Of a stretch of 64,000 nucleotides of DNA, positions 1-29,622 are shown piece after piece. The notes under the pieces are model-generated. The model was given only the letters and a program-made list of their open reading frames with translations. It did no database searches and had not been told where the DNA came from. The position numbers and the translations under genes were made by a program. Position 1 is the first letter of the stretch, and every line of letters starts with the position of its first letter. The DNA comes from Streptomyces sp. NBC_00659 (lineage in GTDB: Bacteria; Actinomycetota; Actinomycetes; Streptomycetales; Streptomycetaceae): positions 9,548,001-9,612,000 of the forward strand of contig NZ_CP109031.1 of the NCBI RefSeq assembly GCF_036226925.1, written 5' to 3'.

Positions 1-748
1 CGTGCTGTGCGGCCTCGGCCACCGTTGCCCGGCCGGAGACGGCGTAACAGGTGGTGACCAGCGGCAGGCCGGCCAGCTGTGCGGCCTCGTAGTGGGCGGC
101 CCGCAGCCGGGGCGGCAGGCCGTGCAGCAGCAGCCCGTCGCAGCCCGCGTCGGCCAGGGCGCGGGCGAAGCCGCCCGGGTCGCGGCCCCTGACGGTGTGA
201 CTCCAGTCGGCGAGCAGGGCGATGCGCAGACGGCGCAGGGTGGGACGTATGGCTGTCACCGCGTCGAGCACGGCGTCGAGGGTGACACCGCTCGCCAGTG
301 CGCGGTCCGCGCTGCGGCGGACGACCGGGCCGTCGGTGACGGAGCCGGGGAAGGGGACGGCCAGTTCGAGGCAGTCGACGTCACTGTCGTCGAGCATCGC
401 GGCGAGGTCCGCCAGGATGTCGAGCGGCGGGTCGCCCGCGTTGACGAACACGGCGAGTCCCGGGCGGCCCGGACGGCGGCGCGCGAAGAACTCGCCCGTG
501 TCGGCCGGTGCGTGGGGGTGTGCGTCCCCGGGAACTCTGCCCCGGGCTCCCCGGCCCTCACCCGCCGGCCGGCCGTCTCCGTCCGGCCCGCAAGCCGGGC
601 GACGCTCCCCAGGCCTTTCGGGCGAAGGCCCCACCGGCGCGGCGGACCCGGCGCTCCGGCAGGACGCCAGGGACAAGGACGCCACTCCGGGCACAGCGTC
701 CGGAGCCAGGCCCGACACCGGGACCGTGGGCAGGAGTCGCTCAGGCAT
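1..748 (-). CDS. TrpA-like protein (tryptophan synthase alpha family), 3' end cut by window edge
   Basis: Lyase of the tryptophan synthase alpha fold, which in primary metabolism cleaves indole-3-glycerol phosphate. The core is recognisable: a strand ending VFVNAGDPPLD, then CLELAVPF with the catalytic-type Glu (about residue 128) and VTDGP with the second acid (about residue 139). The usual MYANLV-type loop is replaced by ALLADWSHTV, so the substrate is probably not the normal one. The ATG overlaps the trpD-like stop by 8 nt (ATGCCTGA), implying coupled translation. That start gives about 85 extra low-complexity residues before the fold; an internal GTG could be the true start. It lies in an operon with an adenylation enzyme, a carrier protein and a TrpD paralogue, which points to an amidine- or indole-like nitrogen heterocycle rather than to tryptophan supply. 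The family call is fairly secure, the reaction is inferred. Confidence 0.72.
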   Translation of the reverse strand, partial: MPERLLPTVPVSGLAPDAVPGVASLSLASCRSAGSAAPVGPSPERPGERRPACGPDGDGRPAGEGRGARGRVPGDAHPHAPADTGEFFARRRPGRPGLAVFVNAGDPPLDILADLAAMLDDSDVDCLELAVPFPGSVTDGPVVRRSADRALASGVTLDAVLDAVTAIRPTLRRLRIALLADWSHTVRGRDPGGFARALADAGCDGLLLHGLPPRLRAAHYEAAQLAGLPLVTTCYAVSGRATVAEAAQH

Positions 749-1787
749 GAGCCGCCTCCCGCGTGCGCAGCCGGTCGACCAACGACAGCGCCGCGCCGTC
801 GTGCAGCGTGGAGCGGGCGGCGCGCAGTGCCTCGTGCCAGTCGCCGGTGAGCCGGCCCGCCACCGCCAGGGCGGCCGCGTTGAGGCAGACGGTTTCGGTG
901 GCGGCGGGGGTGCCGCGTCCGGCGAGGACCTCCAGGAAGAGATCCACGGCGTCCTGCACACCGCCTCCCCCGGGACGGCTCAGATCCGCCAGCCGGCCCG
1001 GCCCCAGGCCCAGCGCGGCGGGCCGCAGGGTGAACTCGTCCTCGGCGCCGTCCTCGTAGCACCGCACCCGGTTGGCGGTGAACGCCAGCAGCTCGTCGGC
1101 GCCGGCGTCGTTGTCGGCCAGCCACACCGTCCGGCCCGTGGCACGCGAGACGTGCGCGGCCGCCTGCCGCAGCCCCTCGAGCGCCTCCGGGCGGGACACC
1201 CCGCTCACCTGGGCGCGCACCGCCACGTCGGCGAGCAGGGGGCCGAGCGTGTTGACGATCGACCCCAGCCGCCGCATGTCCAGCGGCACGACGGCCCGGG
1301 CGAGCAACGCGATCTCCGCGGGGTACACGAAGTACCCGGCGAAGGCGACGCCGCAGCGCTCCAGGGTGTCCTGGGTCTGCTCGTACGACGTCGTCGCCGC
1401 GATGCCGAGCCGCTCGAGCAGGTCCAGGGAGCCGCAGCTGCCGGTGTAGGCGCGAGAGCCGGTCTTGACGACCCGGACGCCCATCGCCGCCGCCACGAAG
1501 GCGGCCGCCGTGGAGATGTTGAAGGTACGCGGCCCGCCCCCGGTGCCGACGATGTTCACGGCATCCGCGAACGCGTCCGCCGGGCGCAGGGGCCTGCGCT
1601 CGGCCAGCGAGTCCAGCAACGCGCACAGCGTGACCGGGTCCGGCATCCGGGTCGACAGCGAGGCGAGCAGGGCCGTGGCCTCACCCCGGCGCAGGTCACC
1701 GGCGTGCAGCTGGTCCCAGAACGACCGCCACACCGGCAGCTGAACGGGACGGTCCCGGCCGATGAGCGCGACGACGGCCTCGTGCAT
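741..1787 (-). CDS. TrpD-like phosphoribosyltransferase paralogue
   Basis: A 348-residue member of the anthranilate phosphoribosyltransferase family, normal length for TrpD. The glycine-rich PRPP loop (GTGGG, residues 81-85), TFNIST (88-93) and the following VVKTGSRA are visible. Two signatures depart from true TrpD: GTGGD has become GTGGG and the anthranilate-contacting KHGNR is KTGSR (108-112). It therefore probably transfers a phosphoribosyl group to something other than anthranilate. It starts 2 nt after the carrier protein stop and overlaps the TrpA-like gene, so the four genes from 3572 down to 1 form one operon. In kosinostatin biosynthesis a comparable set (free A enzyme, PCP, Trp-like enzymes) is reported to build the pyrrolopyrrole from nicotinate and ribose, and that is the best analogy. 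The substrate here is inference. Confidence 0.8.
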   Translation of the reverse strand: MHEAVVALIGRDRPVQLPVWRSFWDQLHAGDLRRGEATALLASLSTRMPDPVTLCALLDSLAERRPLRPADAFADAVNIVGTGGGPRTFNISTAAAFVAAAMGVRVVKTGSRAYTGSCGSLDLLERLGIAATTSYEQTQDTLERCGVAFAGYFVYPAEIALLARAVVPLDMRRLGSIVNTLGPLLADVAVRAQVSGVSRPEALEGLRQAAAHVSRATGRTVWLADNDAGADELLAFTANRVRCYEDGAEDEFTLRPAALGLGPGRLADLSRPGGGGVQDAVDLFLEVLAGRGTPAATETVCLNAAALAVAGRLTGDWHEALRAARSTLHDGAALSLVDRLRTREAAHA

Positions 1788-1789
1788 GA

Positions 1790-2053
1790 CTACTCGGCCC
1801 CCACGTGCTCGCGCGGCGCGTCGGTGAGGAACGCGGCGATCGCCGCGACGGAGGTGAAGGACTCGGGGTCGAGGTCCACGGCATCGGTGTCGACGCCGTA
1901 GCGGTCCTCCAGCCAGGCGATCACCTTGAGCAGCCCGAGGCTGTCGATGACGCCGTTCGCCATCAGGTCGAGGTCGTCGGCGAGGTCGTCCGCGGGCACG
2001 TCCGGCAGGAACTCCCTGAGGACGAACTCCTTGACGGCCTGGGCGTAGTCCAT
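1790..2053 (-). CDS. Free-standing peptidyl/acyl carrier protein
   Basis: An 87-residue carrier protein with the phosphopantetheine site in GVIDSLGLLKVIAWLED (Ser38). The pattern is of the discrete amino-acid or aryl carrier kind (CloN5/RedO-like) rather than the type II polyketide ACP kind. It sits 1 nt after the adenylation gene stop and 2 nt before the TrpD-like start, so it should be made with them and loaded by the adenylation protein. The probable role is to hold the activated acid while the TrpD-like and TrpA-like enzymes elaborate it. The PPTase at 24962-25849 is a candidate for its activation. Confidence 0.88.
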   Translation of the reverse strand: MDYAQAVKEFVLREFLPDVPADDLADDLDLMANGVIDSLGLLKVIAWLEDRYGVDTDAVDLDPESFTSVAAIAAFLTDAPREHVGAE

Positions 2054-2054
2054 G

Positions 2055-3572
2055 TCAGTTCTCCTTGGTGAAGTGGGCCGAAGCGACCAGGTCGCGGTCG
2101 ACCTTGCCGGTGGAAGTCCTGGGCAGCGGGTCGTCGACGATCCGCAGGCCCGACGGAACCGCCGCCCGGGGGAGCCGGCGGGCCAGATGCCCGCGCAGCG
2201 TCAGGCTGGTGAGGCCGGAGCCCGGTGCACGCCGTACCAGCGCGTGCAGCAGCCGTCCGGCGACCGGGTCGGGCAGGGCCAGGACGGCCGCCTCGGTGAC
2301 CTCGTGGTGGCCGAGCAGGACGTGCTCCACCTCCTGGGCGTTGACCCGCACCCCGCGCACCTTGACCTGCGCGTCGGTGCGGCCCTCGAGGGTGAGGGAG
2401 CCGTCCGTGTGCCGGCGCACCAGGTCGCCGCTGCGGAAGTAGCGCCGGCCGTCGTCGCGTGCCGGATGCGGTACGAACGCCTGCGCGGCGGCCGCCGGGC
2501 CCAGGTAGCCGCGGGTCTGGAAGGCGGTGGAGACGAGCAGTTCGCCGGCGCCGGGCCCGGCCAGTACCGTGCCCTCGTCCGTGACGACGAGCGCACCGGC
2601 GCCGGGCAGCGGCCGGCCCAGCGGCAGCGGGCCGCCGCCCGCCGCGTCTTTCGCGCTCACCTCGTACACGAAGCTGTCATTGGTCTCGGTGCACCCGTAG
2701 ATGCTGTGCAGCCGGGCGCCGGGCAGCAGGCCCGGCAGCCGGGCGAGCAGCGGCCCGGGCATGGCGTCACCGGTGAACATGGCGTGCCGTACGGCGGGCA
2801 GGACCACCCCGGCGGTGTCCGCTGCGTCGGCGAGCAGCCGGAAGAACATGGGTACGGCCTGGACGACCCGGACCTGATGCCGGGTCAGCAGATTCAGCAG
2901 GCGGGGACCGTCCAGGGCGTGGTCGGCCTCGACGAGGACGGCCCGGCCGCCGTGCGCGAGGGTGGCCCACACGTCGAGCAGACACAGGTCGAAGTTGAGC
3001 GGCGCGTAGTTGAGGACCGTGGTGCCCGGGCCGATGCCGAAGGCGTCGGCGGCCCAGCCGGTGAAGGCGTCCAGTGCCGCCACGTCCAGCGGGACGATCT
3101 TCGGGGTTCCGGTGGAGCCGGAGGTGGTGAGCAGCAGGGCGGGCCGGCCGGTGGGCGGCGCGGGAGGCCGCGGGGTGCTCGCCCCGCGCGCAGGGGGACC
3201 GTCGTCGGGCCGCAGCGCCTTTTGTACGCCGGCCTGCTCGTGCAGCAGGCCGACGGCGTCCCGGCCGAGCGTGGCGGCCGCCAGCAGCACCGGCCGGCGC
3301 TCCAGCAGACAGGCCAGGACCAGGGCGATGGTGGCGGGCGACTTCACGGCGGGCACGGCGATGGGTGCGTCGCCCGGCAGGTGCGCCAGGCGGGCCCGCT
3401 CGTGCTCCGCGCTGCGCAGCAGCGCTCCGTAGCCGATCTCCTCGTCCCGCCACACCAGTGCGGTCGCGTGCGGGGTTCGCCGCGCCTGTTCCAGGACACC
3501 GCCGAGGAGGGTGCGACGGTGTGCCGCGACGTGTCCGGGCGCGACCTGCGTCCTGCCTGCGCTGCCGTTCAA
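2055..3572 (-). CDS. Free-standing adenylation enzyme (acyl/aminoacyl-AMP ligase)
   Basis: ANL-superfamily adenylating enzyme of about 505 residues that activates a carboxylic or amino acid and loads it on the adjacent carrier protein. Visible motifs: the phosphate loop TTSGSTGTPK (about 149-158), PLNFDLCLLDVW, the A5-type YGCTETNDSF, YFRSGDLV, and the C-terminal STGKVDRD lysine motif. The NFDLCLLDVW and TETNDSF stretches recall the discrete ligases of pyrrole and aryl carrier systems. The start chosen is TTG at 3572, preceded by GGAGGGAAC at good distance; the frame stays open far upstream but there it is antisense to the SWIM gene. A two-heptamer SARP-type box lies about 65-80 nt upstream. 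The substrate cannot be read from the sequence; nicotinate is an inference from kosinostatin, proline or an aryl acid are alternatives. Confidence 0.87.
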   Translation of the reverse strand: MNGSAGRTQVAPGHVAAHRRTLLGGVLEQARRTPHATALVWRDEEIGYGALLRSAEHERARLAHLPGDAPIAVPAVKSPATIALVLACLLERRPVLLAAATLGRDAVGLLHEQAGVQKALRPDDGPPARGASTPRPPAPPTGRPALLLTTSGSTGTPKIVPLDVAALDAFTGWAADAFGIGPGTTVLNYAPLNFDLCLLDVWATLAHGGRAVLVEADHALDGPRLLNLLTRHQVRVVQAVPMFFRLLADAADTAGVVLPAVRHAMFTGDAMPGPLLARLPGLLPGARLHSIYGCTETNDSFVYEVSAKDAAGGGPLPLGRPLPGAGALVVTDEGTVLAGPGAGELLVSTAFQTRGYLGPAAAAQAFVPHPARDDGRRYFRSGDLVRRHTDGSLTLEGRTDAQVKVRGVRVNAQEVEHVLLGHHEVTEAAVLALPDPVAGRLLHALVRRAPGSGLTSLTLRGHLARRLPRAAVPSGLRIVDDPLPRTSTGKVDRDLVASAHFTKEN

Positions 3573-3636
3573 GTTCCCTCCCCCTGATCCCGTTTCGCAC
3601 CGTGCGGTGGTCTTCGGTCCCGATCGTGCGGGGGTG

Positions 3637-3654
3637 GTCTGGAGGATTGATCGA
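3637..3654 (-). promoter_or_regulatory. Candidate SARP box upstream of the adenylation/Trp-like operon
   Basis: Read on the minus strand there are heptamers TCGATCA and TCCAGAC whose starts are exactly 11 bp apart. The same spacing and TC(G/C)A core recurs at other starts of this cluster. It lies between the operon start and the terminator behind the SWIM gene, where its promoter should be. Found by eye; only two good repeats. Confidence 0.45.
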
Positions 3655-3673
3655 GTCACGGTGCACCTGCAGC

Positions 3674-3713
3674 ACCAGGGCCCCGTCACCGGTGGCGGTG
3701 ACGGGGCCCTGGT
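3674..3713. terminator. Perfect 17-bp hairpin, transcription terminator
   Basis: Inverted repeat with arms at 3674-3690 and 3697-3713 and a 6-nt loop, directly after the SWIM gene stop (which reads leftwards). There is no long T run, as is common in Streptomyces. It should separate the SWIM/SNF2 unit from the adenylation operon. Confidence 0.75.
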
Positions 3714-3724
3714 CCCTGTGCCGT

Positions 3725-5023
3725 TCAGTCGTCGGTGAGGTCCACGAGGGCGTCCGAGGGGTCGCCGTGCGGCGCTCCGGCCGGCCACCACGCGTCCGCC
3801 CGGCGGCGATAGGGGTACCAGCGGCCGTCGCGGCCCAGGCGCAGCTGGATGTCCTGGCCGGCCGGTGTCCAGTGGTTGCCCTGGACCTGAAGCTCCGGCA
3901 GTTCGTCCGCCTCCCAGCCCGCCGAGAGCGCCGCGCGTGCCCGGGCGGTCTCCTGGGCGGACGGCGACCAGGCGCGCTCCAGCACCTCCAGCCCCGCCGC
4001 CCCGCCGGTGCGCCAGGCCTCGGCCGCGCGGTCCAGCTCCTCGGACGGTCTGCCGCAGGCCTGCCGCAGCCGCGCCGCAACCCTTGGATCCGGATGGGTG
4101 GCCGCGATGCGTACGGTGTCCTGCCACAGGCCGAGCTCGGGCGCGGGCGCGTCGGTCAGGCCCCGGGCGTACGCGAGCAGCGACCTGGCGCGTACGGCCG
4201 CGTCGGCGACCAGCTGCTCCAGCGGGTCGGCCTCGATGCCGGTGACCGGCTCACCGGCACCGGCCGGGGCGGGAGGCAGCGACGGCAGTCCGGGCAGCGG
4301 CGACGCCTCCCGCGACCAGGCGGACAGCGGGTCCACGCCGGGCAACGGGCCCTTCTGCAGGGTGACTTCCGCGTCCGTCCCGTCCGCGTCCTCGCCGTCC
4401 TCGCCATCCTCTTCGTCCTCTTCGTCCCCGCCCGTCATGGCCCGCAGCAGCAGCTCCGACTTCAGCTCCTCCACGGCCTCTCCGGCGCCCCTGCCCCGCA
4501 CCAGCAGCAGCAGCCACGGGTCCGTGTCCAGGTGCCACGACAGCTGGTAGCACAGGGCCGTGGCATGCGGGCACGGATGGTCCAGGGCGTCGCAGTCGCA
4601 GTCGGCGTCCAGGTCCCCGTACCCGGGCAGCAGCCGCAGCCGGGCGTCCTCCACCGCCTCCAGGAGGTCCTCGGGCAGCTCACCGGCCAGCAGCGACTCC
4701 GTCACGGCGGGCCGGTCCGCGGTCTTGTCCCACAGCAGTTCCCACTCCTGGTCGTCCAGCTCCCGCAGGGTGATCACGGTCGTGTACGCCTCGTCGCCGC
4801 CGTAGACCTGCGCCGTGATCCGTCCCGGGCCGACCGCGATCGGCCCGATCCGTCCGGTGCGGGAGAAGGCCCGGCCCTGCTTCAGCGGCTCCTCCTCCGG
4901 CCAGGTGTCCTCGACGGCCTGCGTGAAGGATCCGGCCCAGAACGACTGGCCGCGGGCACGGCCGCCCTTGCGGGCGGGGAAGGCGGGAAAGCCCCGGGCG
5001 CCGCTGTCCTTGCTCGCGGCCAT
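3725..5023 (-). CDS. SWIM zinc-finger protein
   Basis: A 432-residue protein with a SWIM-type zinc site, CxC followed by CxH (DCDCDALDHPCPHA, around residues 150-165), a fold used for DNA or protein contact. The middle carries an acidic linker rich in Glu and Asp; the C-terminal third is helical and ends DALVDLTDD. The ATG shares one base with the SNF2 stop (TGATG), so the two are translationally coupled and probably work as a pair, as in many actinobacterial genomes. Nothing suggests a direct biosynthetic step. The pair may be a housekeeping insertion or may help survive a DNA-damaging product; that is inference. Confidence 0.85.
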   Translation of the reverse strand: MAASKDSGARGFPAFPARKGGRARGQSFWAGSFTQAVEDTWPEEEPLKQGRAFSRTGRIGPIAVGPGRITAQVYGGDEAYTTVITLRELDDQEWELLWDKTADRPAVTESLLAGELPEDLLEAVEDARLRLLPGYGDLDADCDCDALDHPCPHATALCYQLSWHLDTDPWLLLLVRGRGAGEAVEELKSELLLRAMTGGDEEDEEDGEDGEDADGTDAEVTLQKGPLPGVDPLSAWSREASPLPGLPSLPPAPAGAGEPVTGIEADPLEQLVADAAVRARSLLAYARGLTDAPAPELGLWQDTVRIAATHPDPRVAARLRQACGRPSEELDRAAEAWRTGGAAGLEVLERAWSPSAQETARARAALSAGWEADELPELQVQGNHWTPAGQDIQLRLGRDGRWYPYRRRADAWWPAGAPHGDPSDALVDLTDD

Positions 5024-7851
5024 CACTCGCTCCTCAGCTCGACCAGGCCGGCCAGTTCGTCGTTGGTCAGTTCCGTCAGTGCCTGCTCGCCCGCCCCGAG
5101 CACCGAGTCCGCGAGCTCCTTCTTCGACTCCAGCAGGGCGGCGATGCGGTCCTCGACGGTGCCTTCGGCGATCAGCCGGTGCACCTGGACGGGCCTGGTC
5201 TGGCCGATCCGGTACGCGCGGTCCGTGGCCTGCGCCTCCACCGCCGGGTTCCACCAGCGGTCGTAGTGCACGACGTGTTCGGCCCGGGTCAGGTTCAGGC
5301 CTGTACCGGCCGCCTTCAGCGACAACAGGAAGACCGGCACCTCCCCGTCCTGGAAGCGCTGGACGAGCTCCTCGCGCTTGGGCACGGGCGTGCCGCCGTG
5401 CAGCAGCTGGGCGGGCACCCCGCGTTCGCGCAGGTGCCGCTCCAGCAGCCGGGCCATGACGACGTACTGCGTGAACACGAGCACGGCGCCGTCCTCGGCG
5501 ATGATCGTGCCGAGGAGTTCGTCGAGCAGCTCCAGCTTCCCGGAGCGCCCCGTGAGCACCGTGCCCTCCTCCTTGAGGAACTGGGCGGGGTGGTTGCAGA
5601 TCTGCTTCAGGCCGGTGAGCAGTTTCAGGACCAGGCCGCTGCGGGCGATGCCCTCGCTGCCGCGGATCTGCGCCATCACCTGCCGCACCTGCCCGTGGTA
5701 CAGCGCCGACTGCTCGGCGGTCAGCGCGACCGGCCGGTCCGTCTCGGTCTTGGGCGGCAGTTCCGGCGCGATGCCCGGGTCGGACTTGCGGCGGCGCAGC
5801 AGGAACGGGCGCACGAGAGTGGCCAGGCGCTGTGCCGTGGGCCGTTCCCCAGCGCCCTCGGTGCGCTCCGCCTCGATCGGCGCCATCCAGCGCCGGCGGA
5901 ACTCGCCGTATCCGCCGAGCAGTCCGGGCGTCGTCCAGTCCAGGACCGCCCACAGCTCGGAGAGGCTGTTCTCGACGGGCGTGCCGGTGAGCGCGATCTT
6001 CGCGTCGGCGGGGATCAGCCGCAGCGCCCTGGCGGTGCTGGAGTGCGGGTTCTTGACGTGCTGGGCCTCGTCGGCGACGACCATGCCCCAGCGGTGCCCG
6101 GCGAGCCGGTCGGCGTCGAGGCGCATCGTGCCGTACGTCGTCAGGACGAATCCCTCCCCGGCGCCGTCCAGGGTGCGGCCCGTGCCGTGGTAGCGGCGTA
6201 CGGCCGTGCCGGGCGCGAACCGGCCCACCTCGCGCTGCCAGTTGCCCAGCAGGGAGGCCGGGCAGACGACCAGGGTCGGCCCGCTGCTGTCCTCGTGTTC
6301 CTGGCGCAGCAGATGCAGCGCGATCAGCTGGACGGTCTTGCCCAGGCCCATGTCGTCGGCGAGGCAGCCGCCCAGCCCCAGCGAGGTCATCCGGTCCAGC
6401 CAGCGCAGGCCGCGCAGCTGGTAGTCGCGCAGGGTGGCGGCGAGCGCGGCGGGCCGGCGCAGGGGTTCGGCGCCGCCGTCCGGATCGGCGAGGTGGGCAC
6501 GCAGCGCCAGCAGCCAGGGGGTGGGCTCCACCGGCACCTGTTCCTTGCCGGCCCGCGCGTATCCGGTCAGGGCGACGGCGAGCGCCTCGATCGCGGTGAG
6601 CGTGCCCACCTCCGGCTCGCGGGCCTTGCGGGCCAGGTCGGCACCGGCCAGGATCCAGCCGCCCCGCAGCCGTACGGCGGGACGGCCCGCGGCGGCCTCG
6701 GCCCTCTCCTGGTCCGTCAACGGGTCGCCGTCCAGGCAGAGCTGCCAGCGCAGGTCCACGGTGCCGTCGCCGCCGAAGAACGAACGCAGGTCGGCCGGCG
6801 GCGCGAGGCCGGCGCCGACGACGGCCCGGGCGGTCAGCGAGCGGCCGGCGTCCCCGGGCCACAGCACGTCGATGCCGTGAGCGCGCAGCCGGCCGGCCGC
6901 GCCGCCCAGCAGATCGGTCACGTCCTGGTCGGACAACTCCATGGCGTGCGGCACGGGCAACAGCCGCTGAAGCGGCTTCCACACGTCCGCGGCCCGGCGC
7001 ACGGCCAGCACGGTGTCGGCCTGGGCCCGCGGACCCAGCGCGTGATCGGCGCTCGCGAACAGCTCGTCCGCGTCGAGCGCGAGGGTGGGGTCGGCCAGGC
7101 TGTGGGCGCGGGGGACCAGGCGCAGGCAGGGGGCGATGCCGCCGTCCTCGCTCCCGCCGGTGAGCTCCACCCGCAGGCTGACGCGGACTCCCGAGTCCAG
7201 GCCCGCCGAGATCTCCTCGGCCCAGGCCCGCAGCTGGGGCACGAGCTGGGGCTCCGCCGCCGCGAACGCCGCCCGGCCGGTGGCCGCCGGGGCCGCCGGG
7301 GTGCGCGGCAGGGTGTCGGCGACGGCGTCCAGGAACGCCCGTACCAGGCCCTCCGGTTCGGCCATCCGCACCGCCGTGTCAGCCGTGCCCGGCAGGACGC
7401 CGGCGTACGCCTCGGGCGGCGCGGCAGCGGCGAGCGCGCGCACCCGTTGCACGTCGTCCAGGTCCAGTGGGCCGATCCGCCAGGCGTCGTAGCCGCCCGG
7501 CGTGACACCCGGCAGCAGCCGCTCCCGGGCCGCCAGGTGCAGGGCGATCGCGGCCGCGCCTGCCCAGAACGCGGCGGCCCGATGGACCCCCGCCCCCGGC
7601 CGGGCCGCGCGGGCCAGCACCGGCAGCGCGTCGCCGACCGACAGCCGCACGGCCGCGACGGTGCGCAGGACCGGGGCACCGCCCTCGACGGTGACCACGT
7701 CCACGGCGTCCCCCGCCCCGGCCACCGGATCGGGCGGACCGCCCGGCGGGTCCCAGAACACCACCGTGCCGGAGCGGGGCGGGTCGGCCGCCTCGAAGAG
7801 CACCGCACACCGCGTGAGGTCGTCGGCCCGAACGCCCGTCGTCACTGCCAT
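5023..7851 (-). CDS. SNF2-family DEAD/DEAH-box helicase
   Basis: A 942-residue ATP-dependent DNA translocase of the SNF2/RapA type. The C-terminal half has the Walker A loop DDMGLGKTVQ (about residue 500), the DEAQH box (about 590), SGKLELLDELL, VFTQY, and the motif VI region YDRWWNPAVEAQATDRAYR with RIGQ. The N-terminal half is the less conserved SNF2-associated region of the bacterial form that partners SWIM proteins. ATG at 7851 follows AGAGGGAC. Together with the SWIM gene it is a two-gene unit between the nitrogen-branch operon and the exporter. Chromatin-like or repair remodelling is the family role; a link to self-resistance is unproven. Confidence 0.92.
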   Translation of the reverse strand: MAVTTGVRADDLTRCAVLFEAADPPRSGTVVFWDPPGGPPDPVAGAGDAVDVVTVEGGAPVLRTVAAVRLSVGDALPVLARAARPGAGVHRAAAFWAGAAAIALHLAARERLLPGVTPGGYDAWRIGPLDLDDVQRVRALAAAAPPEAYAGVLPGTADTAVRMAEPEGLVRAFLDAVADTLPRTPAAPAATGRAAFAAAEPQLVPQLRAWAEEISAGLDSGVRVSLRVELTGGSEDGGIAPCLRLVPRAHSLADPTLALDADELFASADHALGPRAQADTVLAVRRAADVWKPLQRLLPVPHAMELSDQDVTDLLGGAAGRLRAHGIDVLWPGDAGRSLTARAVVGAGLAPPADLRSFFGGDGTVDLRWQLCLDGDPLTDQERAEAAAGRPAVRLRGGWILAGADLARKAREPEVGTLTAIEALAVALTGYARAGKEQVPVEPTPWLLALRAHLADPDGGAEPLRRPAALAATLRDYQLRGLRWLDRMTSLGLGGCLADDMGLGKTVQLIALHLLRQEHEDSSGPTLVVCPASLLGNWQREVGRFAPGTAVRRYHGTGRTLDGAGEGFVLTTYGTMRLDADRLAGHRWGMVVADEAQHVKNPHSSTARALRLIPADAKIALTGTPVENSLSELWAVLDWTTPGLLGGYGEFRRRWMAPIEAERTEGAGERPTAQRLATLVRPFLLRRRKSDPGIAPELPPKTETDRPVALTAEQSALYHGQVRQVMAQIRGSEGIARSGLVLKLLTGLKQICNHPAQFLKEEGTVLTGRSGKLELLDELLGTIIAEDGAVLVFTQYVVMARLLERHLRERGVPAQLLHGGTPVPKREELVQRFQDGEVPVFLLSLKAAGTGLNLTRAEHVVHYDRWWNPAVEAQATDRAYRIGQTRPVQVHRLIAEGTVEDRIAALLESKKELADSVLGAGEQALTELTNDELAGLVELRSE

Positions 7852-7902
7852 GTCCCTCTGGATTCCCCTTCGTACATCCGGTCCCGTCCGATGTGGTCGC
7901 TC

Positions 7903-8727
7903 TCAGCTGCCGAGCCGCTGGTAGCGTCGCACGGACAGAGGGAAGAAAACGGCAAAAATGATCACCGGCCACACCACACCCATGACAATGGCCTGATCCG
8001 TCGCCCATGTCCCGGTGTCCCAGCCCGGGTTGCCGAACAGCCGCCGCGCGGCCGTCACCGTCGCCGACAGCGGATTCCACTCGGAGACCGCGGCGAGCCA
8101 GCCCGGCATCGTGTCCGGCGACACGAAGGCGTTCGACAGGAACCCCAGCGGCCACACCAGGGTCTGCACGGCGGTGACGGCGGCCGGGTCCGTGAAGACC
8201 AGCCCCAGGTAGATGCCCACCCACAGCAGGGCGAAGCGCAGCAGCAGGAGCAGGCCGACGGCTGCCAGCGCCCGGCCGAACCCCTCGTTCGCGCGCCAGC
8301 CGACGGCCAGGCCGCACAGGATCATCACGGCAAGCCCGAGGACCGAGTTGAGCATGTCGGCGATGCTGCGTCCGCTCACCACCGCCGCCGCGGACGTGGG
8401 CATCGCCCGGAACCGGTCGGTGACCCCCTTGGCGGCGTCGCTGATCACGGCCAGCATCGTCACCTCGATGCCGAAGACCATCGTCATGGCGAACATGCCC
8501 GGTACCAGGAACTCGCGATAGCTGCCCCCGCCGGGAACCTGCATCGCCCCGCCGAACAGATATCCGAACATCAGCACCATCATGATCGGGAAGAGCAGGC
8601 CGATGACGACGGGGGCGGGATTGCGGGCCCAGTGGGCCAGCGAACGCCCGGTCAGCACCCAGGAGTCGGACAGGGCCCAGCGGGCACCGCCCGTGCCGGT
8701 TTCGGACTGCGGGACTGCGGTGCTCAC
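7903..8727 (-). CDS. ABC-2 type exporter permease (DrrB-like)
   Basis: A 274-residue membrane protein with about six hydrophobic segments, beginning with a soluble stretch and the segment around VIGLLFPIMMVLMFGYLFGG. DrrB-type features include FLVPGMFAM, DRFRAMP, and a C-terminal WNPLSATVTAARRLFGNP. The GTG start overlaps the ATPase stop by 4 nt (GTGA). With the ATPase it forms a daunorubicin-type two-gene exporter that pumps drug out of the cell and gives self-resistance. Export of the aromatic product of this cluster is the likely job. Confidence 0.9.
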   Translation of the reverse strand: MSTAVPQSETGTGGARWALSDSWVLTGRSLAHWARNPAPVVIGLLFPIMMVLMFGYLFGGAMQVPGGGSYREFLVPGMFAMTMVFGIEVTMLAVISDAAKGVTDRFRAMPTSAAAVVSGRSIADMLNSVLGLAVMILCGLAVGWRANEGFGRALAAVGLLLLLRFALLWVGIYLGLVFTDPAAVTAVQTLVWPLGFLSNAFVSPDTMPGWLAAVSEWNPLSATVTAARRLFGNPGWDTGTWATDQAIVMGVVWPVIIFAVFFPLSVRRYQRLGS

Positions 8728-9740
8728 ACCGTCACCTCTTCGTTCTCGGTCCCGCTCGGGCTCTGGTTCCTGTCCGTGCCGGTCAGGTGCAGGAAGACCT
8801 CGTCCAGCGTGGGGCGGCGCAGCGCGATGTCCTCGGCCACGACACCCGCCTCGCCCAGTGCCCGCACGATCTCGGACAGGGCGGCGACCCGGTCCGAGAC
8901 CGGGGCACCCACCCGCCGGTTCTCCACGTCGGTGTCGGGGTCCCGGCCCGTGATGCGGGCCAGCACCCCGGCCGCGGCGGCGATCTCACCGGCGCCGCGG
9001 ACCGTGACGTCGATCCGGTCGCCGCCGATCGCCGACTTCAGCTCGTCGGGCGTGCCCTCGGCGATCACCCGCCCGCCCGCACCGCCCGGCGAGGCGATCA
9101 CCGAGATCCTGTCCGCGAGCTGGTCCGCCTCGTCCAGGTACTGCGTGGTCAGCAGGACCGTCGTGCCGTCCTGGACCAGGGAACGCACCGCCGCCCACAC
9201 CTCGTTGCGGCTGCGCGGGTCCAGGCCCGTCGTCGGCTCGTCGAGGAAGAGCACCCGCGGCGCGAGAATGAGACTGGCCGCCAGGTCGAGGCGCCGGCGC
9301 ATACCGCCCGAGTAGTCCTTGACCTGCTTGGCACCCGTGCCGGCGAGCCCGAACTGCTCCAGCAGCGTGTCCGCGCGCGCACCGGCCGCGCGCTTTCCCA
9401 GGTGGTACAGCCGCCCGAACATCACCAGGTTCTGGCGGCCGCTGAGGACCTCGTCGACCGCGGCGTACTGGCCGAGCAGCCCGATCCGCGCCCGCACCTT
9501 CGCGCTGTCGCGGACCACGTCGAAGCCGGCCACCTCCGCCCGGCCCTCATCCAGCCTGGCCAGCGTGGACAGGATGCGTACCGCGGTCGTCTTGCCGGCG
9601 CCGTTGGGCCCGAGCAGACCGTGCACCGTGCCCTCGGGCACCCGCAGACCGAACCCCCTCAGGGCCGGGGCGTCGCCGTACCGTTTGCACAGGTTCTCGG
9701 CGAGGATCGCGTACCCGGATCCCACGGATGGCCTCGTCAT
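8724..9740 (-). CDS. ABC transporter ATPase (DrrA-like)
   Basis: A 338-residue nucleotide-binding subunit. Walker A is LGPNGAGKTT (about 38-47), the signature is YSGGMRRRLDLA, Walker B is VLFLDEPTTGLD, and the switch region is LLTTQYLDEADQLAD. The C-terminal extension with DEVFLHLTG is typical of DrrA proteins. The ATG at 9740 is preceded by AAAGGGAC. It pairs with the following permease. A divergent 131-bp region separates it from the ABM monooxygenase and contains a three-heptamer SARP-type box. Confidence 0.92.
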   Translation of the reverse strand: MTRPSVGSGYAILAENLCKRYGDAPALRGFGLRVPEGTVHGLLGPNGAGKTTAVRILSTLARLDEGRAEVAGFDVVRDSAKVRARIGLLGQYAAVDEVLSGRQNLVMFGRLYHLGKRAAGARADTLLEQFGLAGTGAKQVKDYSGGMRRRLDLAASLILAPRVLFLDEPTTGLDPRSRNEVWAAVRSLVQDGTTVLLTTQYLDEADQLADRISVIASPGGAGGRVIAEGTPDELKSAIGGDRIDVTVRGAGEIAAAAGVLARITGRDPDTDVENRRVGAPVSDRVAALSEIVRALGEAGVVAEDIALRRPTLDEVFLHLTGTDRNQSPSGTENEEVTV

Positions 9741-9793
9741 GGATGTCCCTTTCCCCGGTGTGCGACAGGTCCGAGCAGTCTTCGGCCGGCCGC

Positions 9794-9822
9794 TCGGTCC
9801 GCCTTCGAGCCCGGCTCGAGCC
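9794..9822 (+). promoter_or_regulatory. Candidate SARP box, three heptamers
   Basis: TCGGTCC, TCGAGCC and TCGAGCC start at 9794, 9805 and 9816, each 11 bp apart, within the divergent region between the ABC ATPase and the ABM gene at 9872. Direct heptamers at 11-bp period are the known layout of ActII-ORF4-type operators. It probably drives the ABM gene; the last repeat is also part of a palindrome and might serve both directions. Confidence 0.55.
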
Positions 9823-9871
9823 GGGCAGGCAAGCGTTCGGTGCGTCAACGCCCACCGGCCCGGAGGAGCAC

Positions 9872-10174
9872 GTGGTCACCTTCATCAACCGGTTCACGGT
9901 CACCGGCCCGGCCGAGGAGTTCGAGCGGCTCTTCGACGACACCTCGGCCTTCTTCCGCGACCGCCCCGGATTCCTGCGCCACCGGCTGCTGCGCCACACC
10001 GAGCGGCCCGGCTCCTACGTCAACATCGCCGAGTGGACGGACGACGAGTCCTTCCGCGCGGCCGTCACCCACCCCGGTTTCGCCCCGCACGCCGCCGCGC
10101 TGCGCACGGTGAGCACCAGCGAACCGAACCTGTACACGGCTGTGCTGGAACGCGAGGCGGCCACCGGAGGCTGA
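9872..10174 (+). CDS. ABM-family (antibiotic biosynthesis) monooxygenase
   Basis: A 100-residue single-domain alpha+beta barrel protein of the ABM family, the ActVA-Orf6 kind, which oxidise aromatic polyketides to quinones without cofactor or assist tailoring. It shows the usual pattern VTFINRFTV, FRDRPGFLRHRLLRH and AEWTDDESF. GTG at 9872 follows GGAGGA at 4-nt spacing. It stands alone between the exporter and a terminator. It resembles the second ABM gene at 19829 in layout (VTF start, GFLRH/GYVRH), so the two may be diverged copies, perhaps acting at different ring positions. Confidence 0.85.
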   Translation: MVTFINRFTVTGPAEEFERLFDDTSAFFRDRPGFLRHRLLRHTERPGSYVNIAEWTDDESFRAAVTHPGFAPHAAALRTVSTSEPNLYTAVLEREAATGG

Positions 10175-10189
10175 GCGGCTCCACGCAAG

Positions 10190-10233
10190 CCGAGAGCGGG
10201 CGGCCCCGGGACACCGGGGCCGCCCGCTCTCGG
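10190..10233. terminator. Perfect 20-bp hairpin between convergent genes
   Basis: Arms 10190-10209 and 10214-10233 with a 4-nt loop, lying between the converging ABM gene and the BBE-like oxidase gene. A bidirectional terminator. Confidence 0.85.
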
Positions 10234-10250
10234 CGTACGGGAGAAGGGCC

Positions 10251-11864
10251 CTACCGGGCCGCTCGCACGGACAGCGGGTGGTGGAACACCTCGCGCGGGT
10301 CCCACTTCGCCTTGACCGCCTGCAGGCGGTGGTAGTTGTCCCCGAAGTACAGCCGGTGCCAGGGCACACCGGAGGTGTTCCACTTCGGATCGGCCATGTC
10401 GATGTCGGGGAAGTTGATGAAGCAGCCCTCGTTGCGGTCGTTCGGCGCCGGAACCCCGCCCGTGTCCTGGTAGACACCCGCGTACAGCCGGCGCAGCCAG
10501 TCCACGTTCGCCGCGTCCCGCTCCGGGCTCTGCCAGGTGTTCATGAACAGCGCCTTCATCACCGAGCCGCGCTGCCAGGACGCCGTCGACCGCGGGCCGA
10601 CCGTGTTGACGAGGCCGCCGTACGACTGGATGGACACCGAACTGGAGTCGTTGGTGTGCTCCGTGCTGCCCAGGAAGCCGTACAGCACGTCGATCTGCTC
10701 GTCGGTGAACGCCCGCCGCAGATAGGACGACTTGATCTTCTGCCGGCCGCTCTCCGCGTCCTGGGAGGCGGCCAGCGACTCGACCGACGCCAGCCACGGC
10801 AGCGTCTCGGGCGGCGCGGCGTACGCCTGGACGCCCACCCCGGCCGAGACCGCGTCGATGTGGTCCTGCAGCAGCCTGCCGGCGTCGGGCAGGGTCGCGT
10901 CCAGGTGGGTGAAGGCCACGGCGCTCAGCCCCTGGTCACTCTCCCCCTGGTGGCCCAGCAGCACCAGACCGCTGAACAGGCCGGTGTACGGCGACCGGGG
11001 GCCGCTGTTGCGCTCGTGCCAGCGCCCGTGGTTGCCCACCAGCGTGCGGAACGCGTTCCTGGTCATGCCCTCGCGCGGGAACATCACGGCGGAGGTCAGC
11101 ACGCTGCCGTGCGGCCGCGGCAAAGCGGTGGCGGGGTCGCTGCCCCGGGCCGCGGGCGAGCGGAACCAGTAGCGGGTGACGACGCCGAAGTTGCCGCCGC
11201 CCGCACCGGTGTGGGCCCACCACAGTTCACGGTTCGGATCGTTCGCGTCCCGCGTGGCGACCACCGCGCGGGCCCGCCCGCGGGCGTCGACGACGACCAC
11301 TTCGACGGCCAGCAGATGGTCGCTGGAGATCCCGTGGCGGCGGGACAGAGCCCCGTAGCCACCGCCCTGCACATGGCCGCCGAAGGCGACGGTCGCGCTG
11401 GCGCCGCCCGGGACGGTCACGCCCCAGCCGTAGTAGAGCGCCCGGTAGACGTCCACGAGCCGGGCACCCGCGCCGATCTCGAAGGCGCCGCGCGCCGCGT
11501 CCCAGCGGACGGTGTCCATCCCGGCGAGATCGACGACCCGGCGGACCGAGGTGTCACCCACGAAGTTCTCGTAGCAGTGGCCGCCGCTGCGCACCGCGAT
11601 GCGCTTGCCGTCGCGTACGGCCTCACGCACCGCCACCACCACCTGCTCGGTGGTGGTGGCCAGCACGAAGGCCTCGGGCCGGGCGGTGAACCTCTTGTTG
11701 CTGCCGCGCACGGCGAGGTCCGCGTAGCGCGGGTCCGCCGGTTCCACCACCAGCGGATGGGAGGAGGGGCTCGCGGCGGCGGTTGCGGTGGCGAGGCCGG
11801 AACCCGCGGCCGCCGCCGCGGCGATCGTGCCCGTGACGAAGCGTCTGCGGTTCGGAGCAGTCAT
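10251..11864 (-). CDS. Secreted BBE-like FAD-linked oxidase
   Basis: A 537-residue flavoenzyme of the berberine-bridge/glucooligosaccharide oxidase family. It begins with a twin-arginine signal (NRRRFVTG, then an Ala-rich hydrophobic stretch to about residue 33), so it should be folded with FAD and exported by Tat. The FAD-binding region has RSGGHCYENF, where His96 is the usual 8-alpha-linked residue. Position for the second, cysteinyl link is PGGASATVAFGGH with no Cys, so a single covalent bond is expected. The C-terminal BBE segment is present (YFGDNYHRLQAVKAKWDP). It follows the ACP gene by 11 nt and belongs to the KS-CLF-ACP operon. A late oxidation or ring closure outside the membrane is a reasonable inference. 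Confidence 0.9.
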   Translation of the reverse strand: MTAPNRRRFVTGTIAAAAAAGSGLATATAAASPSSHPLVVEPADPRYADLAVRGSNKRFTARPEAFVLATTTEQVVVAVREAVRDGKRIAVRSGGHCYENFVGDTSVRRVVDLAGMDTVRWDAARGAFEIGAGARLVDVYRALYYGWGVTVPGGASATVAFGGHVQGGGYGALSRRHGISSDHLLAVEVVVVDARGRARAVVATRDANDPNRELWWAHTGAGGGNFGVVTRYWFRSPAARGSDPATALPRPHGSVLTSAVMFPREGMTRNAFRTLVGNHGRWHERNSGPRSPYTGLFSGLVLLGHQGESDQGLSAVAFTHLDATLPDAGRLLQDHIDAVSAGVGVQAYAAPPETLPWLASVESLAASQDAESGRQKIKSSYLRRAFTDEQIDVLYGFLGSTEHTNDSSSVSIQSYGGLVNTVGPRSTASWQRGSVMKALFMNTWQSPERDAANVDWLRRLYAGVYQDTGGVPAPNDRNEGCFINFPDIDMADPKWNTSGVPWHRLYFGDNYHRLQAVKAKWDPREVFHHPLSVRAAR

Positions 11865-11875
11865 CGTGTCCCCGC

Positions 11876-12139
11876 TCACACGCCGGCGCGCTCGGACAGC
11901 GCCCGGTTGATCAGTTCCAGGTACACGCGCGGGGTCTCGGCCTCGTCCACGGCCTCCTCGTCCAGGAGCACTTCGAAGTCCCGCTCGATGCGCCCGGTCG
12001 TCTGCAGCACGGCCAGCGAGTCGTAGCCCAGTTCGGCGAACGGCACGTCCAGGATGTCGCCGTCCAGGTCCACGCCCTCCTCCTCGCCGGCGCACTCACG
12101 CAGCAGGGTGATCAGGTCAGTGAGTTCGAGCCGTTTCAC
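11876..12139 (-). CDS. Type II polyketide acyl carrier protein
   Basis: An 87-residue ACP with the phosphopantetheine serine in ELGYDSLAVLQ (Ser41) and a strongly acidic middle (EEEGVDLDGD), as in type II aromatic PKS. GTG at 12139 is chosen because AGG lies 6 nt upstream; ATG at 12151 is possible but its GAGG is only one base away. It lies 65 nt downstream of the chain-length factor and completes the minimal PKS with it and KS alpha. It carries the growing poly-beta-keto chain. Confidence 0.93.
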   Translation of the reverse strand: MKRLELTDLITLLRECAGEEEGVDLDGDILDVPFAELGYDSLAVLQTTGRIERDFEVLLDEEAVDEAETPRVYLELINRALSERAGV

Positions 12140-12204
12140 GGCATACCTCATTCCTCGGTGTTCCCGGGTGTTCTTCGGTACAGGTGCTGCGGGTGCCGGC
12201 GGGG

Positions 12205-13476
12205 TCAGGCGCGGACCACGGCGGCGGCGTTGAAACCGCCGCGCCCGCGCGCCAGCACGAGCGCCGTCCGCAGCTGCGCACCCCGGCGCGGGGCACCGGT
12301 CACGAGATCCAGGGGGCAGTCCTCGGCCGGGCGCCGGGTGCCGGTGGTGGGCGGGATCACCTGGTCCCGCAGCGAGAACAGGGCGGCCGCCAGGTCCAGC
12401 GCGCCACCGCCGGCGGCGAGCCGGCCGGTCATGCTCTTCGGCGCGGTCACCGGGACGCCGTACTCCCCGAACACATCGGAGATCGCCCGCGCCTCGGCGC
12501 GGTCGGCCACCCGTTCCCCGGCGCCGTCGGCGAAGACCACGTCGACCTGGTCGGGCCGTACCCCGGCGTCGTCCAGGGCGAGTTCGGCCGCCGCGCCCAG
12601 CCGCGAGCCCCCGCCCGCCCCGGGGGCCGGGTCGAAGGTGGCCGCGTATCCGGCGACCGTCCCGTACACCCGGGCGCCCCGGTCGCGGGCCGCGGTCGCG
12701 GACTCCAGGACCAGCAGCGCGCCGCCCTCGCCGGGGACATAGCCGCAGGCGTCCGCCGAGAACGGCAGGAAGGCGCGGCCGGGGTCGTCGCTGACGCTGA
12801 TGCGTCCCTCGGCCAGGTGCGCGGCCCACCCCCACGGGCACAGCGCGGAGTCGACCGCGCCCGTGACGACGAGCGAGGATCCCCTGCGCAGCTGGCGGCG
12901 GGCCTGCCCCACCGCGTCCAGACCGCCGGCCTGCTCGGACACCAGCACTCCGCTGGCACCGCGCAGCCCGTGGCGGATGGATATCTGACCGGTGTTCACC
13001 GCGTAGAACCAGGCGAACGACTGGTACGCGCTGACGTGCTGGCTGCCCTTGCTCCACAGGGCCTGAAGCTCGCGCTGGCCGAACTCGAAGCCGCCCGCGG
13101 ACGACGCGGTGACCGCGCCCGCCGCGTACTCGGGCAGCTCGGCCGCCTCGACACCGGCGTCCTTGAGCGCCTCCTCGGCGGTCACCAGCGACAGCCGGGT
13201 CACCTGGTCGGTCTGCGACATCAGCCGGCTGGGCACATGGTCCTCGGCGACGAAGCCGGGCACCTCGCCCGCGAGCCGGGCCGGATACCCGGAGGCGTCG
13301 AAGCGGGTCAGCGGACGGATGCCGCTCTCGCCGCGCAGGACCGCCGCCCACCAGGCCGCGGCTCCCAGCCCGTTGGGGGCGACGACACCGATGCCGGTGA
13401 CCACGGCGGGGGTGGTGCGGGCTTGGGCGCCGCGACCGGTGACGCCGGGGCGTTCGAGGAGGGACGTGCCGGTCAT
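12205..13476 (-). CDS. Ketosynthase beta / chain-length factor
   Basis: A 423-residue KS-fold protein in which the catalytic Cys is replaced by Gln ([12 protein letters not shown], Gln182), the hallmark of chain-length factors. It forms the heterodimer with KS alpha and sets chain length, which cannot be read here by eye. The ATG overlaps the KS alpha stop by 4 nt (ATGA), as usual for this pair. It has about 18 extra residues before the first strand ([14 protein letters not shown]). Confidence 0.95.
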
Positions 13477-14738
13477 ACGCTCACTCCCAGGTGCGGGCGG
13501 GTCAGGATCATGGCGCTCTGGAAGCCGCCGAAGCCGCTGCCCACGGTCAGTACCGTGTCGGTCACCTGCTCGCGGGCCACGAGCGGGGTGTAGTCCAGGT
13601 CGCAGGCGGGGTCGGGTTCGTGCAGATTGGCCGTGGGCGGCACGGTGCCGTGCTCGATGGCCAGGGCGCTGGCGGCCACCTCGAGGGCGCCGATCGCGCC
13701 GAGCGAGTGGCCGATCATCGACTTGATGGAGCTGATGGGCACCTCGTACGCCCGGGAGCCGAGACCGCGCTTGAACGCGGTCGTCTCGTGCCGGTCGTTC
13801 TGCTTGGTGCCCGAGCCGTGGGCGTTGATGTAGTCGACGTCGCCGGGGGCGAGCCGGGCCTCGTCCAGGGCGGCGGTGATGGCCTCCGCCATCTCCCTGC
13901 CGTCCGAGCGCAGGCCGGTCATGTGGTAGGCGTTGCTGCGGCTGGCGAAGCCCGCGATCTCGGCGTACACATGCGCGCCGCGGCGGCGGGCGTGCTGAAG
14001 CTCCTCGACGACCAGGACGGCCGAACCCTCGCCGAGCACGAACCCGTTGCGGGTGCGGTCGAAGGGCCGCGAGGCGGTCTGCGGCTCGTCGTTGCGGGAC
14101 GTGGTGGCCTTGATCGCGTCGAAGCAGGCCAGGGTGATCGGGGAGATCGGCGCCTCGGTCGCGCCCGTGACCATGACGTCGGTGCTGCCCTCGCGGATCA
14201 GCTCGACCGCGTGCCCGACGGAGTCCAGGCCCGAGGTGCAGCCCGTGGACACCAGCGACACCGGGCCCTGGGCGCCGACGCTGCGGGCGACCTCGGCGGC
14301 CAGCGAGCTGGGCACGAAGTAGTCGAACAGATGCGGAACGGCGCGTGTGTGGTCGACCAGCCAGTGGGCGCCGCCCTCGCTGACCTTCGCGTACTCGACG
14401 TCGAGGCCGGTGGTGCAGCCGACGGCGCTGCCGAGCGTGACCCCGGTGCGCAGCGGGTCGAGCTGCCCGTCCAGTCCGCTGTCGGCCACCGCCTCGCGGG
14501 CACTGACCAGCGCGAACTGCGCCGCACGGTCGAGCCGTTGGGCCTCGGCCGCGGTGAACCCGTGCGCGTCGGCGTCGAAGTCCACCTCCGCGGCGATGCG
14601 CGAACGGAACTGGGCAGGGTCGAACAGGGTGATGCCACGGGTGGCGGTGCGGCCCGCGGTGAGCACCGACCAGAACTCCTTGGTGCCCACTCCACCCGGG
14701 GCGACCACTCCGATTCCGGTGATCACAACCCGTCTCAT
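13473..14738 (-). CDS. Ketosynthase alpha of type II PKS
   Basis: A 421-residue condensing enzyme that extends the polyketide with malonyl units. The active site is [12 protein letters not shown] (Cys167), with the His residues in [11 protein letters not shown] and [12 protein letters not shown], and the typical [16 protein letters not shown]. It is first in the operon KS alpha, CLF, ACP, BBE-like oxidase. Upstream on the minus strand is a two-heptamer SARP-type box within the 143-nt gap to the SARP gene. Length and motifs are normal. Confidence 0.97.
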
Positions 14739-14859: not shown

Positions 14860-14881
14860 ACACGACGCGGGCCGAGAGCGC

Positions 14882-28413: not shown

Positions 28414-29622
<1,209 letters not shown>

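Follow-up and report, generated by a model that had tools for sequence, protein, structure and literature searches.

Why should a type II polyketide synthase (PKS) cluster carry beside it a stand-alone adenylation (A) enzyme, a carrier protein and relatives of the tryptophan enzymes? This question is raised by a 64,000-base stretch of Streptomyces sp. NBC_00659 (the window), which comprises bases 9548001–9612000 of a single-contig chromosome of 9,661,321 bases and which holds at its left end the beginning of an operon with these genes. The answer that we favour, with moderate confidence, is that the window belongs to a kosinostatin-type cluster for an aglycone, the left operon of which would make a bicyclic amidine from glutamine via an aminopyrrole. 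It builds on what can be read from the sequence: gene content and order, counterparts in a kosinostatin producer, retained catalytic residues and missing sugar genes.

A sequence-only reading of the window had proposed four overlapping genes for an A enzyme, its carrier and two tryptophan-enzyme paralogues. All four were found by a Pfam scan on the minus strand: the A enzyme (2055–3572; AMP-binding, E 1.1e-41; AMP-binding_C, 5.5e-14), the stand-alone peptidyl carrier protein (PCP; 1790–2053; PP-binding, 8.5e-8), a TrpD-like phosphoribosyltransferase (741–1787; Glycos_transf_3, 4e-46) and the 5′ part of a TrpA-like gene (1–748), which continues to about genome position 9547663, 337 bases left of the window (Trp_syntA, 2e-42, at genome 9547729–9548478). 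The TrpD-like protein also matches the NCBIfam trpD model (E 1.3e-48), its 166 bits being under the 199-bit cut-off. The genes are indeed closely packed, but a general overlap is not seen: gaps of 1 base (A/PCP) and 2 bases (PCP/TrpD) separate the first three, and only TrpD and TrpA overlap, by 8 bases, provided that TrpA starts at 748. Begun at this ATG, the TrpA-like protein has an odd low-complexity N-terminal extension (478–748); its script-called relatives begin nearer the conserved domain.

The four genes are only the first part of the operon. When 53 kb of left flank were added (gene calls by our own script, 20 proteins scanned with Pfam), five more genes were found beyond base 1 on the minus strand (genome 9544047–9547666), coding for an EctC-like protein (Ectoine_synth, 4.9e-35), an acyl-CoA dehydrogenase (ACAD) of the prolyl type (1.1e-37), a transglutaminase-like (TGase-like) protein (9.7e-16) and TrpF-like (PRAI, 4e-12) and TrpC-like (IGPS, 2.2e-41) proteins. 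The order of the nine genes is A, PCP, TrpD, TrpA, EctC, ACAD, TGase, TrpF, TrpC. A TrpC-like gene was among those to be looked for on this side, and what the flank holds of the tryptophan pathway is TrpF- and TrpC-like genes only, not a complete normal trp operon.

For comparison we used 100 kb of Micromonospora okii TP-A0468, a kosinostatin producer found by the related-locus scan. Of the 54 genes called there (k33 to k86), 30 match the window region with more than 40% identity and 24 are unmatched at E 1e-5; every one of the 30 pairs is a reciprocal best hit when the two regions, rather than entire genomes, are compared. Besides the complete operon and the minimal PKS, the pairs comprise an aromatase/cyclase, reductases, SnoaL-like proteins, a methyltransferase, an FAD oxidase, the ABC transporter, the SWIM and helicase genes and a regulator of the SARP type. 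Within the operon the reciprocal best hits are 50% (A), 55% (PCP), 55% (TrpD), 51% (TrpF), 61% (TrpC) and 58% (TrpA) identical. The A enzyme thus does not fall with an unrelated pathway, its specificity code also being of the same type as in TP-A0468, and the type II PKS stands beside the operon as had been stated (minimal PKS at 11876–14726). The kosinostatin-like character proposed by the sequence-only reading is thereby borne out, and the sequence comparison supports placing the window within a cluster of the kosinostatin (quinocycline) type. In a Streptomyces albidoflavus strain, disruption of ksnC3 (phosphoribosylanthranilate isomerase) is described to abolish kosinostatin formation (ISME J, PMC13099267). 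The same source, which counts 18 putative carriers in 34,389 genomes on the condition that 27 or more of 33 structural genes are present, places Streptomyces spiroverticillatus in the same cluster version (version B).

The arrangement recurs elsewhere. We compared 84 loci (L007–L090), four chosen from 13 plasmid records and the others being the best 80 of at least 459 relatives from a genome scan, and counted Trp-like genes at 40% identity or more. All four Trp-like genes are present in 36 loci (full loci), none in 45 (Trp-free loci) and part of them in three. In 34 of the 36 full loci the order is A, PCP, TrpD, TrpA, EctC, ACAD, (TGase), TrpF, TrpC, with L026 and L031 deviating; in 36 of the 45 Trp-free loci it is A, PCP, EctC, ACAD, TGase, and the nine deviating ones include contigs ending beside the A gene (L029, L084). 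TGase is found in 12/36 full and 41/45 Trp-free loci. The order of the window's four genes is therefore not due to chance, since it repeats in other genera. Proteobacteria also have the cassette (L031, L080, L085, L089 and an Aliiroseovarius plasmid). Within the genus, a TrpF-like match at E ≤1e-40 occurs in 11 of 199 genomes, the host included.

What does the A enzyme activate? Its code, at the Stachelhaus positions as mapped by alignment, is DLLQMTIDSK, which is of the same type as DLLQVTLDSK in TP-A0468. The pattern DLLQxTxDSK occurs in 77 of 85 A sequences; of the others, five carry F in the third position, in one S replaces T, in another T replaces S, and L066, a locus without an EctC match, has DLLQVANNSK. 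D is found at the first place in all 85 and at the eighth in 84. In A domains D235, the first position, usually binds the alpha-amine, and by this rule the residue speaks against an aryl acid such as anthranilate. The code is also not of the prolyl type, which disfavours proline itself: the A enzymes of a Pseudoalteromonas prodigiosin-type cluster and of S. microflavus (beside a prolyl-type dehydrogenase), both taken from plasmid records, read DLFYIAWVCK and DLFYLALVCK, and no EctC match was found in the stretches examined around them. An EctC-bearing Aliiroseovarius cassette has DLLHLAIDTK. Judged from these two prolyl sequences, the V-C pair of prolyl-type codes appears to become D-S or D-T where EctC is present, which brings in an acidic residue. 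Among solved structures, the top rows for the A enzyme are multi-domain gramicidin synthase, and an L-proline-carrier ligase (6o6e) ranks first among the single-domain chains; a profile search of solved structures gave gramicidin-synthase rows again, with 6o6e among its single-domain chains, and no alignment to the prolyl ligase.

The dehydrogenase and the EctC-like protein point in a similar direction. The best solved relative of the ACAD is a prolyl-ACP dehydrogenase (4irn; 4.7e-86) and its best NCBIfam model is L-prolyl-PCP dehydrogenase (374 bits, below the 650 cut-off). EctC from Halomonas elongata is reported to form the cyclic amidine 5-amino-3,4-dihydro-2H-pyrrole-2-carboxylate (ADPC) from glutamine in a side reaction (PMC6344544); on the same reaction PMC4795551 speaks of two glutamine molecules. 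In all 79 cassette sequences the EctC-like iron ligands E57, Y85 and H93 are invariant, as are T40, Y52, H55, F107, E115 and H117. The host has a separate, higher-scoring ectoine synthase at 2.54 Mb. The A code, the prolyl-type ACAD and the glutamine side reaction of EctC together lead us to the proposal that the A enzyme takes ADPC and that the core enzymes yield aminopyrrolyl-PCP. As far as sequences can tell, a glutamine-derived aminoproline is a more likely substrate than nicotinate, proline or anthranilate.

The catalytic residues of the Trp-like enzymes are largely retained. Residue numbers of TrpA, TrpF and TrpC follow the model enzymes. E49 and D60 of TrpA are kept in 39/39 sequences, the TrpF Cys in 38/39 (one gap) and its Asp in 39/39, and E51, K53, K110 and E159 of TrpC in 37/37. 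In the TrpD-like protein of the window GTGGG and KTGS stand in place of GTGGD and KHGN (motif roles as given in PMC5537072 and PMC9835598). The K of KHGN and the DE motif are present in 40/40 rows and GTGGD reads GTGGG in 39/40, while all 38 cassette rows lack H and N of KHGN; these two residues are kept only in L071 and L072, whose TrpD-like matches (33%) do not belong to the cassette. A loss of the carboxylate-binding Arg in TrpD was also considered and dropped because the alignment is ambiguous around that helix. From these residues the enzymes appear to be functional, yet adapted to a different acceptor.

In the route that we propose, the starting compound, each of the reactions and the place of EctC before or after loading are inferred; it would run from glutamine via aminoproline and aminopyrrole to a pyrrolopyrrole, and not from nicotinate. 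The A enzyme would activate the proline analogue ADPC, formed from glutamine by the EctC-like protein, and load it onto PCP, and the prolyl-type dehydrogenase would aromatise it to 5-aminopyrrole-2-carboxyl-PCP. The TrpD-like enzyme would then add phosphoribose at the exocyclic nitrogen, the TrpF-like enzyme would isomerise the product and the TrpC-like enzyme would close the second pyrrole. A retro-aldol reaction of the TrpA-like enzyme could remove the side chain, giving pyrrolo[2,3-b]pyrrole, an amidine isostere of indole, which the TGase-like protein may release from the carrier and of which the indole-3-like carbon would attack the polyketide.

Several points weigh against this route. In the TrpC-like proteins the position of E210 is Ala in 37/37, and N180 is kept in 34/37, being replaced in L032, L036 and TP-A0468; the TP-A0468 protein (L039) has Thr there. 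GTGGD and KHGN are missing from all 38 TrpD-like cassette rows, and with these changes in TrpC and TrpD the later chemistry may differ from that of the tryptophan route. The prolyl side of the code comparison consists of two A sequences. The release role of the TGase-like protein, for which no convincing relative was found among solved structures, is a guess. On the side of the route, UbiD enzymes for pyrrole-2- and indole-3-carboxylate are described (PMC7976604, PMC8988006), seven of the 36 full loci have a UbiD gene, and in TP-A0468 one overlaps the TGase gene about 45 kb from the operon. Against it, the TP-A0468 gene has no match in the 117 kb around the host operon, and the single UbiD gene of the host genome lies at 5.5 Mb; without a UbiD near the operon, the loss of the carboxyl group is unexplained in the host. 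The replacement of EctC Asn38, which could be added to this list, argues neither way because the host's own ectoine synthase has His at that position. Finally, the published kosinostatin precursor, nicotinic acid plus ribose, conflicts with the route.

Among the alternatives, the one that survives best leaves the aminopyrrole in place and changes the order of events: glutamine would be activated first, and the EctC-like protein would act on glutaminyl-PCP. Asn38, which according to PMC6344544 holds the free carboxylate in EctC of P. lautus, is T, C or A in 79/79 cassette sequences, as one would like to see for a carrier-bound substrate. As proof of such a substrate the loss of Asn38 is weakened by the ectoine synthase of the host, which lacks this residue as well. 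Also, the A code resembles that of the two prolyl-type enzymes with D-S in place of V-C, a change that a ring-bearing amidine would lead one to expect. We regard glutaminyl-PCP as a possible, if rather doubtful, intermediate.

The other alternative is the published one. Ma et al. in 2013 reportedly showed by feeding and biochemistry that the pyrrolopyrrole of kosinostatin comes from nicotinic acid and ribose; A would load nicotinic acid, the pyridine would contract to a pyrrole and the Trp-like enzymes would add the second ring with ribose. The nicotinate origin is described second-hand in PMC7918784 (Table 5), PMC5321127 and PMC8400222. It gains weight from the gene-by-gene correspondence of the window cluster to the kosinostatin cluster. 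However, D235, the residue usually reserved for an alpha-amine, opens the A code in 85/85 sequences, the core of A, PCP, EctC and ACAD offers no oxygenase that could contract the ring, and the dehydrogenase in it belongs to the prolyl class. Glutamine would give both amidine nitrogens, whereas nicotinate supplies one. The myxochelin/bacillibactin-type A domains that are credited with nicotinate uptake have the code PLPAQGVVNK (PMC8400222), and kstB7, to which a deformylation was ascribed, is described as missing from a second producer's cluster, its homologue there lying nearly 1 Mb off (PMC7918784). A nicotinate origin is therefore unlikely in our view, the feeding results notwithstanding.

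That the favoured product of glutamine and polyketide should be an aglycone is indicated by the genes without counterparts. Octose sugar genes, which the sequence-only reading had suggested to look for, did not turn up. Pfam, run on ten of the 24 unmatched TP-A0468 genes, identified a nucleotidyl transferase, a 4,6-dehydratase-like protein, a 3,5-epimerase, an NDP-hexose 2,3-dehydratase, an EryCIII-like glycosyltransferase, an E1 dehydrogenase and a Gfo/Idh oxidoreductase, besides a UbiD decarboxylase, a protein of the cyclase family and a TetR regulator. The 117-kb region of the operon yielded nothing at E 1e-10 for ten TP-A0468 genes (eight sugar genes, UbiD, cyclase), and no NDP-hexose 2,3-dehydratase (PF03559) was found in the complete 9.66-Mb host genome. 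Seven genomes or records were searched for PF03559. Three lack it: the host, Streptomyces sp. WAC05374 and Couchioplanes caeruleus, the last two being draft genomes. Of the four that have it, TP-A0468 and S. spiroverticillatus carry it close to the operon, the S. xanthii plasmid has the two about 250 kb apart, and in strain ST2-7A it sits on contigs other than that of the operon. Since the sugar genes are missing, the cluster should be an aglycone-type member of the kosinostatin family, with an unglycosylated, quinocyclinone-like product.

Glycosyltransferase genes can sit outside a cluster, and the host genome has one match to the TP-A0468 glycosyltransferase at 8.53 Mb; that the sugar is supplied from there or elsewhere in the genome and the product is ordinary kosinostatin is nevertheless very improbable, as this match is weak (E 3e-5) and the complete genome has no 2,3-dehydratase. 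That the operon, with its four Trp families, belongs to the primary tryptophan operon of the cell or merely duplicates it is practically refuted by the position and score of the true copies (much higher-scoring trpA, trpC and trpD at 2.78, 2.79 and 2.92 Mb), by the absence of trpB and trpE among its nine genes (Pfam) and by the single order that the Trp-like genes share with A, PCP, EctC and ACAD in 34/36 full loci.

Beyond the window the loci suggest a widespread nested cassette, a view to which we would give even chances. Its core (A, PCP, EctC, ACAD, often TGase) would convert glutamine to carrier-bound 5-aminopyrrole-2-carboxylate, the extended form would add TrpD-A-F-C as a second tryptophan pathway acting on the aminopyrrole, and three full loci (L038, L045, L047) would proceed to an amidine isostere of tryptophan for a peptide. 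These three carry a TrpB-like gene, as expected if the species freed by TrpA behaves as an indole isostere; they also have a UbiD decarboxylase, and a gene that follows starts like an A domain. UbiD is found in 7/36 full loci (L028 with UbiX too) and in 0/45 Trp-free loci. A TrpB-like gene is also present in 14 of the 45 Trp-free loci (L034, L043, L044, L048, L050, L059, L065, L069–L072, L074, L081, L090), where the aminopyrrole itself may be joined to serine. The TrpB-like proteins of L038, L045, L047 and L034 are above the NCBIfam cut-off; the other 13 were recognized by similarity to that of L038. A EutA/arylmalonate-decarboxylase-like gene (30% identity or more; e.g., L010:16169-16975) occurs in 23/45 Trp-free and 0/36 full loci, and in the one scanned it is below the NCBIfam cut-offs.

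A strictly all-or-none Trp set is ruled out by L013 and L014, which have TrpA and TrpF and, at the locus, where alone they were looked for, no TrpD or TrpC; their EctC gene lies elsewhere in the genome. The third partial locus (L051) is a 4.2-kb contig. In L071 and L072, both counted as Trp-free, a TrpD-like match lies about 9 kb away from the A gene, but at 33% it is under the 40% limit. In a midpoint-rooted tree of A, EctC and ACAD (79 rows, 37 with a TrpF-like gene), Trp-bearing rows mostly form one nested part, Trp-free rows occur within this part and L078 stands apart; the tree permits only a weak inference on the nesting of the Trp-bearing form. A split cassette (L126, L013, L014) is seen in S. 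albogriseolus and strain SW4: on the S. albogriseolus plasmid CP042595.1 the EctC gene is about 83 kb from the A gene, and the locus examined does not include it in SW4 or in S. albogriseolus JCM 4616.

A ketosynthase at least 60% identical to that of the window is present in five loci and a weaker one in 19. Many full cassettes (L009, L015, L018–L020 and others) adjoin a ketosynthase of about 38% identity together with MaoC-like and BioF-like genes (MaoC in 17/36, BioF in 15/36 full loci); by their gene content these likely serve a different product class.

Of the other genes in the window, those on the minus strand next to the operon are shared with TP-A0468: a SWIM zinc-finger protein and a helicase (3725–7845; 41% and 62% identity, named after the S. 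xanthii counterpart), an ABC transporter permease and ATPase (7903–9725; 64% and 70%), an FAD-dependent oxidase-like protein (10251–11864; 60%) and the minimal PKS, consisting of acyl carrier protein (11876–12139), chain-length factor (12205–13476) and ketosynthase alpha (13473–14726), which are 55%, 65% and 72% identical to TP-A0468 and 69%, 81% and 87% to S. spiroverticillatus. On the plus strand follow a SARP-type regulator, recognized by eye (16268–17089; 50% TP-A0468, 82% S. spiroverticillatus), and an acyl-CoA dehydrogenase/oxidase-family enzyme with a phosphopantetheinyl transferase, the latter again recognized by eye (23082–25849). These two proteins have no match in the TP-A0468 region and are reciprocal best hits in that of S. 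spiroverticillatus (55%, 59%); the NCBIfam matches of the oxidase-family enzyme are weak only. In the right half of the window functions were partly named by eye. Judged by eye, a free-standing condensation protein (26201–28354) stands beside methyl-cycle genes on one strand (28414–36363: S-adenosylmethionine synthetase, adenosine kinase-like, methionine synthase, MetF-like, S-adenosylhomocysteine hydrolase). A second cluster (48315–63999), likewise read by eye, has DpgA-D-like, benzoylformate-decarboxylase-like, aldehyde dehydrogenase and ABC transporter genes and a type I PKS that runs off the right edge; it recalls a dihydroxybenzoate-primed polyketide.

The window lies inside a terminal inverted repeat of about 155 kb (genome 1–155291 and about 9506030–9661321) and the cluster (g34 to g67) is present twice, near each chromosome end, with two copies of the operon. 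The repeat comparison covered the first 20 kb (ends 99.985% identical), window 1–18321 and the left-flank stretch L006, which hold operon, PKS and left flank (copies more than 99.99% identical), and window 44001–64000, where an ungapped comparison gave 70%, a pattern expected from a register shift. The match stops in the next stretch, about 155.3 kb from the chromosome end. In another species of the genus (G136) the TrpF-like gene is also in two copies.

The findings bear on the role of orphan EctC proteins, described in PMC6344544 as not yet clear, on the source of the kosinostatin amidine nitrogens and on the recruitment of Trp enzymes as a set. If the nested cassette is real, a group of orphan ectoine synthases would have a role and the published origin of the kosinostatin pyrrolopyrrole would have to be revised. 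The host may offer a sugar-free quinocycline scaffold, and the code DLLQxTxDSK beside an EctC-like gene could serve as a genome-mining handle for amidine natural products. Among the open-access papers listed by our searches, judged from titles and abstract openings, none described an EctC-bearing carrier cassette, and anthelvencin, the biosynthesis of which reportedly includes an EctC-like step, was not mentioned in those listed.

How does the cluster compare with known systems? With the tryptophan pathway TrpD-F-C-A it shares the catalytic residues of TrpA, TrpF and most of TrpC, whereas TrpD differs in its acceptor-site motifs and TrpC at the position of E210. With ectoine synthases of the orphan type the EctC-like protein, which may be one of the orphans counted in PMC6344544, shares family and metal site but sits in a carrier-protein operon. 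The proline-to-pyrrole cassettes (A, PCP, prolyl-PCP dehydrogenase; prodigiosin) have the same dehydrogenase type, and a prolyl-carrier ligase is the best single-domain solved relative of the A enzyme; the operon adds the EctC-like protein, and its A enzyme differs from the two prolyl-type enzymes by D-S for V-C and Q for Y, at 31–34% identity. The kst cluster of TP-A0468 has the same A, PCP, TrpD, TrpA, EctC, ACAD, TGase, TrpF, TrpC, minimal PKS, cyclases, reductases and transporter. The window cluster is without its octose genes, UbiD and cyclase-family gene, has the TGase gene within the operon rather than elsewhere in the cluster, and contains extra genes common to S. spiroverticillatus. 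The latter differs by a 2,3-dehydratase, a glycosyltransferase and other sugar genes of its own near the operon, but has the same nine-gene operon and minimal PKS genes (69–87% identical) and counterparts of the regulators and of the acyl-CoA oxidase-like and phosphopantetheinyl transferase-like genes.

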